A stretch of 64,000 nucleotides of DNA. Origin: Oceanicoccus sp. (GTDB taxonomy: Bacteria > Pseudomonadota > Gammaproteobacteria > Pseudomonadales > Dasaniaceae). Below are positions 7,324 through 45,435 of this stretch, in pieces; the first letter of the stretch is position 1, and every line of letters begins with the position of its first letter. The stretch covers positions 1-64,000 of the forward strand of contig NZ_JAQWFR010000022.1 of assembly GCF_029238675.1 (NCBI RefSeq), read 5' to 3'. A program made the position numbers and the translations under genes. The notes below the pieces were generated by a model. That model did no database searches, was not told where the DNA came from, and was given only the letters and a program-made list of their open reading frames with translations.

Positions 7324-7679
7324 GGTTGTTTTCCTGTCTTGATTGCGAGTTGTGTTGAGGGTGACATGGCTTTGGAGAGCGTTTGTCACACTTTTTTACT
7401 GTGTATTGCTAAATTGCTGCATTCGGGAGGAGGATTGACAGCGGGCCTTTCGGCCCTTGGGGCTTCGCCCCGTCGCCTCTGGCTCCGTCCAAAATGCTAC
7501 GCATTTAGTGATAGTTAAAGCCTGAGGGCATTAACTACCCCTTCGGGGCGCCCTGATAAAGCGGGCGTCCAAAATGCTTTGCATTTTGTCGAACCTCTAA
7601 CGGTTCAAATCCTCTCGGGGGGACTTCGCACTCTATATTTAGAGTTTGCGTAGTAATTCCCGTACGAGAATTATAAAAA
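7324..7679. other. Hairpin-rich spacer between tRNA-Gln and prs
   Basis: No gene is supported. The stretch is packed with short stems: GGGCC/GGCCC (7443-7456), GGGGC/GCCCC (7459-7471), CCCC-TTC-GGGG (7548-7558), CTCTA/TAGAG and others. A unit beginning GTCCAAAATGCT occurs twice (7487-7506 and 7567-7587), each time as a small AAATGC/GCATTT hairpin. Around 7590-7620 there is a short tRNA T-arm-like sequence that does not fold into a tRNA. It looks like degenerate repeats and processing sites between the tRNA and prs. Confidence 0.45.
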
Positions 7680-7754
7680 TGGCTGGGGCGAGAGGATTCG
7701 AACCTCTGAATGCCAGGATCAAAACCTGGTGCCTTGCCGCTTGGCGACGCCCCA
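7680..7754 (-). tRNA. tRNA-Gln (TTG)
   Basis: A complete 75-base tRNA with CCA. The acceptor stem is TGGGGCG with CGCCCCA, the anticodon stem-loop CCAGG-TTTTGAT-CCTGG gives anticodon TTG, and the T arm is AGAGG-TTCGAAT-CCTCT. Sequence and length follow E. coli tRNA-Gln. It starts 13 bases after the ispE stop and is probably cut from the lolB-ispE-prs transcript. Confidence 0.95.
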
Positions 7755-15342: not shown

Positions 15343-15371
15343 CACTTTTTGGAATGGATCGGAGTGTCATT

Positions 15372-16022
15372 ATGATGTCATTAATTACCACCTATAACGG
15401 GTTGCACCAACAGGTGTTTGGTCGGCTTAACCTGCTTGAGGGCTTTGCCCCTTTATTACTACGCTTATACCTTATTCCAGTTTTGTGGATGGCAGGAACC
15501 CACAAGATTGATTTAACCACGCTAATGCCTTTTGAAAATACCGTGGCCTGGTTTGGTAATCCCGAGTGGGGTCTGGGGCTGCCGCTGCCAACTTTAATGG
15601 CGTTTATGGCGGGCTGGACTGAAATACTGGGCGCTATTTTTCTGGCCGGTGGTTTTGCTGTTCGCTGGATATCTATACCGCTAATGGTCACCATGCTGGT
15701 GGCTGCCTTTACTGCCCACTGGGAATTTGGCTGGCAGGCTATTGCTGATGCTGGCGCACCGTTTGCCAATGAGAGAGTGATGGAGTCCGCGGATAAGTTG
15801 GCCGCCGCCAAATCCATTTTGCGTGAACATGGTAATTACGATTGGCTAACCAGTAGTGGCTCGGTGGTGATTTTAAATAGTGGTATCGAGTTTGCCGCCA
15901 CTTATTTTGTTATGTTGTTTGCTTTGCTATTTACCGGTGGTGGTCGATATACCAGTATCGACTATTGGCTGAGCCGCCGCTTTAAACCCTCCGTCATTCC
16001 CGCGCAGGCGGGAACCCAGTAA
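15372..16022 (+). CDS. DoxX-family membrane protein
   Basis: The 216-residue protein has about four membrane helices in the DoxX layout: LLLRLYLIPVLWMAGTHK, a second around MAFMAGWTEILGAIFLAGG, a third ISIPLMVTMLVAAFTAHW and a fourth near FAATYFVMLFALLF. The Arg in the first helix and the GWTEILG motif are typical. DoxX proteins are quinone-linked or redox-related membrane proteins with no single known role. ATG 15372 is chosen because GGAG at 15361-15364 is well placed; an ATG at 15354 lacks one. The last ten codons (about SVIPAQAGTQ) lie inside a REP-type repeat, so the natural C-terminus was probably replaced by repeat insertion. Confidence 0.8.
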   Translation: MMSLITTYNGLHQQVFGRLNLLEGFAPLLLRLYLIPVLWMAGTHKIDLTTLMPFENTVAWFGNPEWGLGLPLPTLMAFMAGWTEILGAIFLAGGFAVRWISIPLMVTMLVAAFTAHWEFGWQAIADAGAPFANERVMESADKLAAAKSILREHGNYDWLTSSGSVVILNSGIEFAATYFVMLFALLFTGGGRYTSIDYWLSRRFKPSVIPAQAGTQ

Positions 16023-16053
16023 ACGTGGATTCCCGCCTGCGCGAGAATGACGG
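15991..16053. repeat. REP-type inverted repeat, divergent copy
   Basis: CCGTCATTCCCGCGCAGGCGGG and its inverted partner ending GAATGACGG flank a short centre. It lies between the convergent DoxX-like and GGDEF-EAL genes; the DoxX-like stop codon (16020-16022) is inside it and the other stop codon (16054) is adjacent. It differs from the other copies by GCAGGC in place of GAAGGC. Confidence 0.85.
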
Positions 16054-19000
16054 TTAATGGTGACCATACAATCGCTTCTGTTCCAGGAACAGACTATTAA
16101 AGTCAGCCCCGCTTAGGGGCTTACTGAAAATATAACCCTGCAACTCGTCACAACCTAATGCTTTTATCATAGTAAGCTGTTCTTCCGTTTCAACACCTTC
16201 TGCCACTACATTCAGCGATAAATCGTGGGCCAGTTTTACAATATTACCGGCAATTTTTAAATCGGTCTTATCAGACACAATTTCAGCGACAAAAGATTGG
16301 TCTATTTTCAGACTATCTACCGGGAAGCGTTTTAAATAACTCAAGGAAGAATAACCCGTGCCAAAATCATCCAGCGATAATTTAACCCCCAGCGACTTTA
16401 ATCGCTGCATGGTATTAATCGCCTCTTCGGCATTATCAATAATGGCCCCTTCAGTGATTTCCAGCTCAAGGTTTTGTGGTGGTATTTTGCCGCTATCCAG
16501 TACTGCAGAAATGGTATCTACCAAATCGCTATGGTTAAACTGAATGCCAGAAATATTAACCGCAATACTTTCAAAGGAAGGATATGCAGCTATCCACTTA
16601 CCTGCTTGCTTACAGGCCTGCTCTAAAACAAACTCGCCAATCTGCCAGATAATACCGGTTTCTTCCGCAATAGGAACAAACTCGGCGGGGGATACCATAC
16701 CGTATTTTTCAGAATTCCAGCGTAGCAAAGCTTCCGCGCCTACAATTTTACCAGTTTGTAAATTGACCTTGGGTTGGTAATTAAGAAATAGCTCGTTTCT
16801 TTCAATTGCTGCCCGTAGTTCAGATTCCAGGTCCATACGGCGAACAATCTTTTCATTCAATTGTTCAGTATAAAACTGATAGTTATTGCGCCCTTTGCTT
16901 TTTGCGTGGTACATGGCGGTATCGGCTTTACGCAGTAATTCACCGCTGCTGTCGCCGTCACTGGGATAAAGAGCAATGCCAATGCTGGGGGTAACCAGCA
17001 GCTTATAGTCATCAACAGTAATATGTTCCGACATCACCTTTAACAACTCGTCGGCCACTTTAGCTGCAGAGTAGGGGGCTGGAATATCTTCTACTAAAAT
17101 TGCAAATTCATCACCACCCAGCCGGGCAACAGTATCCATTTTTCTGGTTCGCAGTTTTAATCGCTTACCCACCTCAATCAGTAACTGGTCACCGATATCA
17201 TGCCCCAGTGAATCATTAATATTCTTAAACTGGTCAAGGTCAATAAACAGCAATGCATGTTTTTCATTGGTGCGTTTGGATTTGCCAATAGCATGTTGCA
17301 AACGCTGCTGGAATAGCGTGCGGTTTGCCAGTCCGGTCAGGCTGTCGTAGTAACCCAGTTGGCGCAGTTTATGTTCATATTCTTTTCTTTCTGATATGTC
17401 CCTGATTGCAACAATCTGTGCGGCTTGCTGGCTGAATGAACCATTTTTGCTGCGAATTTCTACCGTTATGGCAGTGCCATCCTTTCTGGGTATAGAAAAT
17501 TCAATCGCGTTATTATCAGCATTAGAGATATGCTTTAACAAATCAGGCAGGTCATTCTTTGCCATAAAAGACTCGCCGCTACTACCAATCAGGTCTGCCG
17601 GCGCGACACCTAATAATTGGGTGCAGACCTGGTTGGCATCAATGATAATACAATCCTGGAAAATTAAAATGGCTTCAAAGGTCGAGTCTGCCAAATCGCG
17701 CCAACGTCGTTCATTTTCCTGATAGGCGAAGTCAGCCATTCTTTTATCAGTAATATCATGCAGTGTACCGATTATCATAGGCGTTTTTTCGCCCTGTCGA
17801 TTTCTATGGAAATCGGCTTCGGCTAAGTAGTAGCGGATGCTACCGTCGGGGTGCTGCAATTTAAATTCAGATTGAAACGCTTCAGCATGAGCTTTGCCCG
17901 AGCCAAACGATAGCTTAAGCTGCTCTTGTTCTTCCGGTGAGGCCAGTTGCAATAACTGGTCAAAACTATTGCCAGAATTCTTAGGTAACTCCGGAAGAAT
18001 TTTTTGTGCACTTTCTGAAAAAAGAAATTCGTTAGTTTCTGTATTCCATGACCAATCACCATAATGAGCAATGCTTTGTGCCTGGGTTAATTGTTGCTCG
18101 CGCCGTTTTCTATTATCAACTTCCATGCTGAGCTGCTTGTTAATATTATCAATGCTCGATGTCATGCCACTGCCCCAGGCAATCATTTTAAACACGACAC
18201 ATAAGTTCAATAGATTACTGGCTGTCAATGTCGGCATAGAGCTTTCAGGTAGAACGGCAGCCGCCATCACAGGCAAAAGAATAAACAAGCTGCCTGCCAA
18301 TGGGAATACAGCAGGGGTATAGCCGCTATGCAGGCGAATGGCGGAGGCCAGGATAATGATAATAGTTGCAATATATCCAGCCAATATTGTTGCGTGTTCG
18401 GCTGCTGCTTGTGACCATGAATACATAGGGATTACGGCTAAAGCGAGAACGGCAGTAGCGAGTAAGATTTTATCCAGCGAAGGATTGTGCTGCTTTAACA
18501 TCAGGAAATTATGAATAAAAAAGGCACTGGCAATAATATTTAAAGAGGAGCCAAAGATTGTTAAAAAGTCGACCAGTTCACTAGTGCCCGGGAGTAACAC
18601 TTTAATAGTGCCCTGATTGCAGGCGATCTGTAGGGTTACCGCCACCAGCACCCCAAGAAAATATAGAAAGGTGCGATCTTTTAGCGTGAAATAAATATTC
18701 AGGGTATAAATAAACAGAGCCAGTAAAATACCGTAAATAATGCCCAGCTGCCTATTAAGGTCACCCAAATAAATGGTTTGGCTATGGTCGCTGTACAGCC
18801 TGGCAGAAAAGTGCACGCTTGAATTATTATCAACTTTGAGTAAGAAGTTTTGTGTTGCATTTGCTGCAACATTAAACTGAAGTAAATTGATTCTTTGCTG
18901 CCTATCCCGGCTGCTGTTGATATATTGGTCTCCGCTGCGGTCTATCAGGGTGTATTCAAGATTGCTGGAAATATTGTTGTTGTCAGTGTACAGCTCGATA

Positions 19001-19371
19001 TTATTAAGCCGGGCATTATCACACTCTAACCATAAGTTAAGCCTTTCATCTGAGGTGTTTGTTAATGAAAAGCTAAACCAGTAACTGCCGGATGTGCGGT
19101 TGAACCGTTTTCCGTCCTCCGCCAATGCTTCAAAGTCATCACTGGAAATCCGCGAAACAACTTCATTCAAGGAGAGTTGTCGATCAATATCCGTTAACAC
19201 TTTGGTGTGCGGCAGTAACAGAAGATAGGTGTTAGGGTCGTTGTTGATTTCAACCGTAGCCTGGCTTGAAGCGAACAGGCTGTGCAATATCAGGCCAAGG
19301 GCTACCAGCCACATGCGTAACTTATTGGTTTTGAAAATGCGGTGTACGCAGTGGCTTAGCCAATTACCCAT
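16054..19371 (-). CDS. 7TMR-DISM sensor protein with PAS, GGDEF and EAL domains
   Basis: This 1105-residue membrane protein should control cyclic di-GMP. A signal-anchor is at about 20-37, then a periplasmic beta-rich 7TMR-DISM extracellular domain (about 45-185), seven membrane helices (about 200-405), two PAS domains (about 430-540 and 555-670), a GGDEF domain and a C-terminal EAL domain. The cyclase motif is intact (RLGGDEFAIL) and an inhibitory RxxD site, RKMD, lies five residues before it. The EAL domain keeps GAEALLRW, ITEGAI, DDFGTGYSSL and AEGVE, so phosphodiesterase residues are also complete. Both activities are thus possible; which dominates cannot be told. No strong ribosome binding site is seen, so the exact start is uncertain. 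It diverges from the rhlB-like gene. Confidence 0.92.
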   Translation of the reverse strand: MGNWLSHCVHRIFKTNKLRMWLVALGLILHSLFASSQATVEINNDPNTYLLLLPHTKVLTDIDRQLSLNEVVSRISSDDFEALAEDGKRFNRTSGSYWFSFSLTNTSDERLNLWLECDNARLNNIELYTDNNNISSNLEYTLIDRSGDQYINSSRDRQQRINLLQFNVAANATQNFLLKVDNNSSVHFSARLYSDHSQTIYLGDLNRQLGIIYGILLALFIYTLNIYFTLKDRTFLYFLGVLVAVTLQIACNQGTIKVLLPGTSELVDFLTIFGSSLNIIASAFFIHNFLMLKQHNPSLDKILLATAVLALAVIPMYSWSQAAAEHATILAGYIATIIIILASAIRLHSGYTPAVFPLAGSLFILLPVMAAAVLPESSMPTLTASNLLNLCVVFKMIAWGSGMTSSIDNINKQLSMEVDNRKRREQQLTQAQSIAHYGDWSWNTETNEFLFSESAQKILPELPKNSGNSFDQLLQLASPEEQEQLKLSFGSGKAHAEAFQSEFKLQHPDGSIRYYLAEADFHRNRQGEKTPMIIGTLHDITDKRMADFAYQENERRWRDLADSTFEAILIFQDCIIIDANQVCTQLLGVAPADLIGSSGESFMAKNDLPDLLKHISNADNNAIEFSIPRKDGTAITVEIRSKNGSFSQQAAQIVAIRDISERKEYEHKLRQLGYYDSLTGLANRTLFQQRLQHAIGKSKRTNEKHALLFIDLDQFKNINDSLGHDIGDQLLIEVGKRLKLRTRKMDTVARLGGDEFAILVEDIPAPYSAAKVADELLKVMSEHITVDDYKLLVTPSIGIALYPSDGDSSGELLRKADTAMYHAKSKGRNNYQFYTEQLNEKIVRRMDLESELRAAIERNELFLNYQPKVNLQTGKIVGAEALLRWNSEKYGMVSPAEFVPIAEETGIIWQIGEFVLEQACKQAGKWIAAYPSFESIAVNISGIQFNHSDLVDTISAVLDSGKIPPQNLELEITEGAIIDNAEEAINTMQRLKSLGVKLSLDDFGTGYSSLSYLKRFPVDSLKIDQSFVAEIVSDKTDLKIAGNIVKLAHDLSLNVVAEGVETEEQLTMIKALGCDELQGYIFSKPLSGADFNSLFLEQKRLYGHH

Positions 19372-20954: not shown

Positions 20955-21087
20955 CCGTCATTCCCGCGAAGGCGGGAATCCAGTGCTGTCAATTTCCGCC
21001 TTAGCGGAAATAACAGCATAACCATGCAGTCTGGATCCCCGCCTTCGCGGGAATGACAGCGGATCCCCGCCTTCGCGGGAATGACGG
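20955..21087. repeat. REPIN-like composite repeat with an extra arm
   Basis: An outer arm CGTCATTCCCGCGAAGGCGG, an inner hairpin TTTCCGCCTTAGCGGAAA, and an inverted outer arm ending GAATGAC form a roughly 100-bp element (20957-21057), followed by one more inverted arm to 21087. It lies between the convergent rhlB-like and cysZ genes and has the opposite orientation to the copies at 29176 and 43221. Confidence 0.92.
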
Positions 21088-29160: not shown

Positions 29161-29279
29161 CGTCATTCCCAGGAACGTCATTCCCGCGAAGGCGGGAATC
29201 CAGCCTGCATGCTTATGCTGTTATTTCCGCTAAAGCGGAAATCTACAGCGCTGGATTCCCGCCTTCGCGGGAATGACGG
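29161..29279. repeat. REPIN-like composite repeat
   Basis: A full element spans 29176-29279: outer arm CGTCATTCCCGCGAAGGCGG, a spacer with inner hairpin TTTCCGCTAAAGCGGAAA, and the inverted outer arm ending GGGAATGACG. A partial extra arm CGTCATTCCC starts at 29161. It is identical over nearly its whole length to the copy at 43221-43321. It lies between mltB and rlpA. Confidence 0.93.
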
Positions 29280-43220: not shown

Positions 43221-43321
43221 CGTCATTCCCGCGAAGGCGGGAATCCAGCCTGCATGCTTATGCTGTTATTTCCGCTAAAGCGGAAATCTACAGCGCTGGA
43301 TTCCCGCCTTCGCGGGAATGG
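43221..43321. repeat. REPIN-like composite repeat
   Basis: The same element as at 29176-29279, in the same orientation and identical in its inner sequence (arms, GCCTGCATGC spacer and hairpin TTTCCGCTAAAGCGGAAA). It differs at the last bases of the second arm (GAATGGC). It lies at the 3' end of miaB, upstream of ybeZ. Confidence 0.93.
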
Positions 43322-43329
43322 CATGGGTG

Positions 43330-45332: not shown

Positions 45333-45435
45333 CGTCATTCCCGCGAAGGCGGGAATCCAGTACTGTAGATTTCCGCTTTAGCGGAAATAACAGCATAAGC
45401 CTGCAGGCTGGGTCCCCGCCTTCGCGGGAATGACG
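45333..45435. repeat. REPIN-like composite repeat, inverted orientation
   Basis: The element reads as the reverse complement of the copies at 29176 and 43221 (inner hairpin TTTCCGCTTTAGCGGAAA, then AACAGCATAAGCCTGCAGGC). It ends two bases before the aminotransferase stop codon and lies between convergent genes. Confidence 0.93.

Follow-up and report, generated by a model that had tools for sequence, protein, structure and literature searches.

A CGTC-type REP element as the very probable source of the last nine codons of a DoxX/HvfX-like gene in Oceanicoccus

In a window of 64,000 nucleotides from Oceanicoccus sp. (the whole stretch of DNA analysed here; NCBI RefSeq assembly GCF_029238675.1, contig NZ_JAQWFR010000022.1, positions 1 to 64,000), the nine C-terminal codons of a gene coding for a DoxX/HvfX-like membrane protein very probably originate from a short repeat. 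In the scenario that we propose, a REP of the CGTC-1 type, most likely a single inverted dimer, would have inserted at the 3' end of this gene, at the native stop codon or within about one codon of it, once the species had split from its closest sequenced congener, within a multiplication of the repeat at the level of the species. Since the entry arm of this copy carries no stop in the frame of the gene, the ribosome would read into the element, through VIPAQAGTQ, up to a TAA located in the spacer. The native tail would have counted about three to four residues (KPS or KPSG).

The 3' end of the DoxX/HvfX-like gene

The product of the gene matches the Pfam DoxX profile (PF07681, 1.4e-17) and, between residues 31 and 206, the NCBIfam HvfX model NF050144, with 220.5 bits against a curated cut-off of 80; the repeat-coded tail lies outside the latter match, which stops at residue 206. 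In the translation of the open reading frame, the 222-aa protein ends in ...DYWLSRRFKPSVIPAQAGTQ and, after RRF, reads KPSVIPAQAGTQ before the stop. The features of the site are the following:

15354..16022, plus strand: DoxX/HvfX-like membrane protein gene (ORF, 222 aa, profile matches)
15990..16022, plus strand: C-terminal codons S-VIPAQAGTQ and stop (translation), the Ser codon straddling the repeat border
15992..16018, plus strand: left REP monomer, with CGTC tag, 8-bp stem, 4-nt loop and CCA tail
15993..16051: 59-bp unit GTCAT...ATGAC, whose flanks without the unit read RRF-KPSG-TAA
16019..16025: spacer GTAAACG, 7 nt, with in-frame stop TAA
16026..16052, minus strand: right REP monomer, inverted (TGG...GACG)
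16054..16057: TTAA adjoining the repeat, the stop of the convergent gene (minus strand) being 16054-16056
16054..19371, minus strand: convergent 7TMR-DISM/PAS/GGDEF/EAL protein, 1105 aa (ORF and profile match)

The initial annotation had placed the last ten codons and the stop of the gene inside a REP copy. This holds for nine codons (VIPAQAGTQ) and for the stop TAA (16020-16022), which lies in the spacer between the repeat arms, whereas the tenth codon from the end, the Ser codon TCC at 15990-15992, straddles the repeat edge. That the convergent stop codon abuts the other end of the repeat proved correct, 16054-16056 following immediately on 16053, the final base of the repeat, and the repeat does not enter the reading frame of the convergent GGDEF/EAL gene.

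The direct neighbours of this HvfX-scoring gene code for a ThiF and a GGDEF/EAL protein; HvfX is a family of copper-binding RiPP maturation, whose expected neighbours are the hvfABC genes. Elsewhere in the window, an Rfam match to AaHKsRNA22 (7496-7599, minus strand, 41.8 bits for a gathering threshold of 39.8) is found near a tRNA gene (7683-7754).

Anatomy and multiplication of the repeat

The inverted repeat arms (15991-16018 and 16026-16053) are 28 nt long, 93% complementary and 7 nt apart. The CGTC tag occupies 15992-15995 and recurs at the inverted end, and the CCA tail lies at 16016-16018, with the inverse TGG at 16026-16028. In between, the stem-loop has the form ATTCCCGC-GCAG-GCGGGAA(T/C), namely an 8-bp stem beginning with an A-T pair and a 4-nt loop; in this copy, judging from the sequence, the first pair of the left monomer is mismatched and the stem of the right monomer carries one base change. 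In the frame of the gene, the left monomer covers the codons for VIPAQAGT plus the two initial bases of the Gln codon, and the C of its CGTC tag completes the Ser codon. At gathering thresholds, no Rfam family was matched at the repeat site.

With up to three mismatches allowed, the arm pattern occurs 9 times in the window and never in 100 shuffles, and a similar pattern has 392 matches in the window's genome (G000, 2.3 Mb), against 0 for the reversed control pattern, so that the repeat cannot be put down to chance. A further genome of this species (G056) holds 363 arm matches, and five other congeners 23, 8, 0, 0 and 0, one of the genomes with zero being 64% complete.

The elements were surveyed over 846,016 bases, namely the window and 40 further stretches, or 36% of the assembly; as these stretches were partly picked from contigs with known arms, the element density of the survey is biased. 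It holds 171 arms in 101 elements, 68 of which are pairs. Among the 134 flanks of these pairs, the base before GTC is C in 72% and T in 26%. Half of the pairs or thereabouts (35/68) are 101 bp long and 19/68 measure 50-70 bp. Examples of dimers in the window are those at 20957-21057, 29177-29277, 43222-43322 and 45334-45434.

As regards a candidate mover, direct repeats are absent from the ends of 65 of the 68 pairs, the other three showing 1, 2 and 4 matching nt where about 1/68 would be expected to show any; a classical MITE with target-site duplication was rejected on these counts. Besides, no match to Y1_Tnp (PF01797) was found in the two genomes of the species (G000, 92.7% complete, and G056, 96%), and mobilisation by a RAYT was likewise rejected on the basis of this search, which covered the Y1_Tnp family alone. 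As a control, 5 of 14 control genomes were positive, and four of the five other congeners carry one or more matches.

Comparison with homologues

The initial annotation had proposed an alignment with homologues. The search retrieved 110 rows, or 106 after removal of 4 duplicates, and 104 once the two rows from the species itself (the window and L062) were set apart; the related-locus set was built from the best 80 of 104 relatives. Among the 104 homologues, all distinct and from outside the species, none has a SVIPAQAGTQ-like ending, the VIP of one of them (L060) lying within an unrelated tail. The tails that follow DYWL count 5-23 residues among the homologues, with a median of 8.5, and the 16 residues of the window protein are equalled or exceeded in 3/104.

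At the level of genomes, the gene was searched in 56, of which 30 gave a match; two congeners, G003 and G004, have no match and are hence uninformative on this gene. The nearest congener with a match, G005 (identity 88% in one comparison and 90% in another), keeps the order ThiF - DoxX - GGDEF/EAL, and no repeat was found in 3.6 kb around its DoxX gene. Its protein ends four residues past RRF (RRF-MAER, stop TAA). The only other carrier among the homologues is L062 (Oceanicoccus sp. Bpl_5, of the same species), which has both the repeat and the repeat-coded tail. Its alignment to the window, over 6019 bases, contains 11 differences, including K/E at residue 211, just upstream of the repeat, and one right-arm base. 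Taken together, the lack of such an ending in the 104 homologues, the repeat-free syntenic locus of G005 and the restriction of the only other carrier to the same species indicate that the repeat supplies the C-terminus and that the insertion is derived.

An assembly error, or a native tail that would merely resemble the repeat, has a negligible probability in our view. It is true that L062 is a MAG and that the window's genome is in 30 contigs, but this second assembly, with its 11 differences in 6019 bases, shows the same junction, and a native look-alike is at odds with the homologues, none of which (0/104) has a similar tail. The statement of the initial annotation that a mobile repeat has become coding sequence is in agreement with both the genetic code and the homologue comparison; the element appears to have moved, and the tail would be translated.

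One inverted dimer or two monomers

The element has likely moved as one unit. Removal of the 59-bp unit 15993-16051 leaves RRF-KPSG followed by TAA, that is a four-residue tail as in G005, and the corresponding empty-site allele would read AAACCCTCCGGTTAATGG. The TTAA at 16054-16057 would then once have held the stops of both genes, the plus-strand triplet 16055-16057 being the displaced native stop of the DoxX-like gene. By itself, this recovery of a stop is only suggestive, since joining the flanks of the 68 paired elements, host-gene cases included, yields one within two codons in 31 of 408 joins.

Alternatively, two REP monomers could have inserted separately, the TAA at 16020-16022 being the native stop (KPS and stop) and the nine codons still being repeat-derived. 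We regard this as possible but rather doubtful. Removal of the two monomers with the spacer kept leaves TTT AAA CCC TCG TAA, that is RRF-KPS and the stop, for an expected empty-site allele AAACCCTCGTAAACGGTTAATGG. Moreover, the TAA-bearing spacer GTAAACG with its flanks occurs a single time in the genome, unlike the similar spacer that is shared by the 58-bp elements seen; this uniqueness implies that the stop is not a feature of the family, and that it may be native and trapped between the monomers. Against such a double event, short dimers are frequently met as units (the 19 of 68 pairs of 50-70 bp mentioned above include this one), and the alignment to G005, whose junction is too diverged to be aligned base by base, scores the two possibilities equally (50.0 and 50.0, with a mean of 50.2 for random spacers).

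Recurrence at other conserved genes

Five conserved genes, namely HvfX and the four following ones, each take their C-terminus from one of the surveyed elements (5/101):

DapC, C1:40968-42218 (= L143:968-2218), ends in ...RHSREGGNPAL and stop
TruD, C13:25837-26901 (= L169:5837-6901), ends in ...RRPREGGDPVLTA and stop
GluQRS, C4:17858-18796 (= L148:17858-18796), ends in ...SVIPAKAGIQCCQFPL and stop
MATE transporter, C6:54376-55785 (= L163:14376-15785), ends in ...RHSREGGNPAL and stop

The G005 orthologues of these four proteins all end without such a tail (4/4), and those of the second genome of the species, G056, all have the endings of the window's genome (4/4). The five tails use two frames of the repeat, with VIPA found twice and RHSREGG-type residues three times. 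Once the element is removed, a stop is regained within two codons in two of the five host genes, DoxX and DapC, after six residues in TruD and after 28 in GluQRS; in the MATE element, of which one arm is recognised, the flank join is uninformative.

The survey comprised 11 overlaps with ORFs, six of which were left out of this count: two ORFs touching an element edge (981 and 171 aa), three elements inside ORFs of 112-150 aa that are possibly spurious, and one 269-aa ORF starting inside an element. A GluQRS relative with several stops, in G002, was also left out. The idea that the elements would be built to end translation was rejected: among the 408 frame and orientation entries into the 68 paired elements, a stop is met in 271 (66%), against 64% for base-shuffled copies.

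Some further observations concern these host genes. Two of the five act on tRNA, a class that is also represented among the REP hosts described by Di Nocera et al. (2013, PMC3733652). The right end of the MATE-gene element is altered in the window's genome and continues into a right arm in G056 (L208, L209), a difference from which it follows that elements change between close genomes. Just upstream of the DapC and MATE elements, the beginning of the repeat is found once more in incomplete form, as GTCATTCCC or GCCATTCCCGC (in L143 just before 2184 and in L163 just before 15751), and these two elements were perhaps inserted next to older remnants.

Possible effects on the protein and on the RNA

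In the structure model (mean pLDDT 73.8, 19 sequences), the last helix spans residues 202-210 and is followed by no helix or strand, the mean pLDDT falling to 50 over residues 211-220 and to 39 over 221-222. Low values also occur in blocks between 121 and 180, so that the model is only moderate. The predicted tail is thus probably a loose appendage. The insertion is probably harmless. It would be tolerated because the C-terminus of the family is short, variable and probably unstructured. That selection would have kept the repeat-coded peptide for a function appears highly improbable. The tail is indeed kept in L062, the one other sequence of the species, with the K/E change at residue 211 just upstream, but two genomes so similar could not reveal selection. 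Furthermore, four unrelated genes carry differing element-coded tails, in two frames in all, the homologue tails after DYWL vary from 5 to 23 residues, and this tail is predicted to lack regular structure.

An effect on the RNA has also to be considered. The 78 nt from 15985 to 16062 fold with -53.4 kcal/mol on the plus strand and -60.2 on the minus strand (z -9.8 and -11.9), and the hairpin may affect both convergent mRNAs at their 3' ends. Among the 96 elements with an assignable context (5/101 being unassignable), 61 lie in unidirectional, 26 in convergent and 9 in divergent gaps; per gap, and treating every element as alone in its gap, this amounts to 0.27 in convergent ones (26/98) versus 0.09 in divergent ones (9/97), or 2.8 times more (Fisher p 0.0025). 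It could then be that the main effect of the insertion is on RNA, the stop-enclosing hairpin slowing late translation or blocking 3' exonucleases and thereby altering the output of both genes. The very stable fold on both strands and the preference for convergent gaps speak for it, as do the ribosome stalling and tmRNA tagging reported for E. coli REPs near stop codons. Nevertheless, a prediction of terminator-like sites gave none at the repeat, which led to the rejection of a classical terminator, and the scarcity in divergent gaps may simply reflect the removal of insertions that damage promoters. We consider this possibility unlikely. More speculative still, and very unlikely, is that a recent burst of REP dimers, in a species lacking a Y1_Tnp match, would have spread a portable 3' cassette (tail, stop and hairpin) tagging many proteins, whose last translation step would be commonly controlled. 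If true, such control could operate for instance through stalling and tmRNA rescue, and related C-terminal peptides would be found across many housekeeping proteins.

Significance

Thanks to the syntenic outgroup, the DoxX/HvfX-like gene is a clean example of how a mobile repeat has apparently turned into protein sequence. It is not a one-off, as about one element in 20 (5/101, in the surveyed part of the genome) ends a conserved gene. Since unrelated proteins come in this way to share VIPA(Q/K)AG or RHSREGGNP C-terminal peptides, errors in annotation and in the clustering of proteins could result. Finally, multiplication in genomes in which no Y1_Tnp gene was matched bears on the question of what moves CGTC REPs.

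Relation to known repeat systems

The CGTC-1 REPs are described by Di Nocera et al. (2013, PMC3733652) as having a CGTC tag with TGTC variants, an 8-bp stem, a 4-nt loop and a CCA tail, in a family that includes Neisseria dRS3 and Rickettsia RPE-6. Compared with this description in the text, rather than with a consensus, the Oceanicoccus elements agree in tag, stem, loop, tail and inverted dimers. They also share the preference for convergent and unidirectional gaps and the lack, according to the same text, of a known dedicated transposase. They depart from it in that about half of their pairs (35/68) are 101-bp dimers with a structured spacer. The main text of that paper, which already reports REP-coded C-termini, makes no mention of Oceanicoccus. 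The REPs with a GTAG tag that are linked to RAYT (TnpA-REP) are likewise short, palindromic, mostly intergenic and present in high copy number, but the tag here is CGTC and the two genomes of the species give no Y1_Tnp match.

In Coxiella burnetii, as set out in PMC5896051, QMITE1 and QMITE2 extend over the 3' ends of several named genes, to which they add C-terminal residues, the last 33 residues of the Dugway EnhC coming from a QMITE. The QMITEs are longer and have terminal direct repeats (2-3 or 7-11 nt), of which the Oceanicoccus elements show little sign. As for the Rickettsia palindromic elements (Ogata et al. 2000, 2002), they are summarised in PMC10969869 as mobile palindromes translated within host proteins, close to half of the R. 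conorii elements reported first sitting in ORFs as translational fusions; these are fusions inside ORFs, whereas the Oceanicoccus element ends the ORF.

A literature search did not find the tail-peptide strings; it matched pieces of the repeat DNA, including in work that by title deals with Neisseria, and, judged by title, returned nothing on such elements for Oceanicoccus combined with repeat. With REP- and QMITE-coded C-termini in print and the Rickettsia elements reviewed, the kind of event is therefore already known, and what is added to it is the DoxX/HvfX instance and the multiplication in Oceanicoccus.
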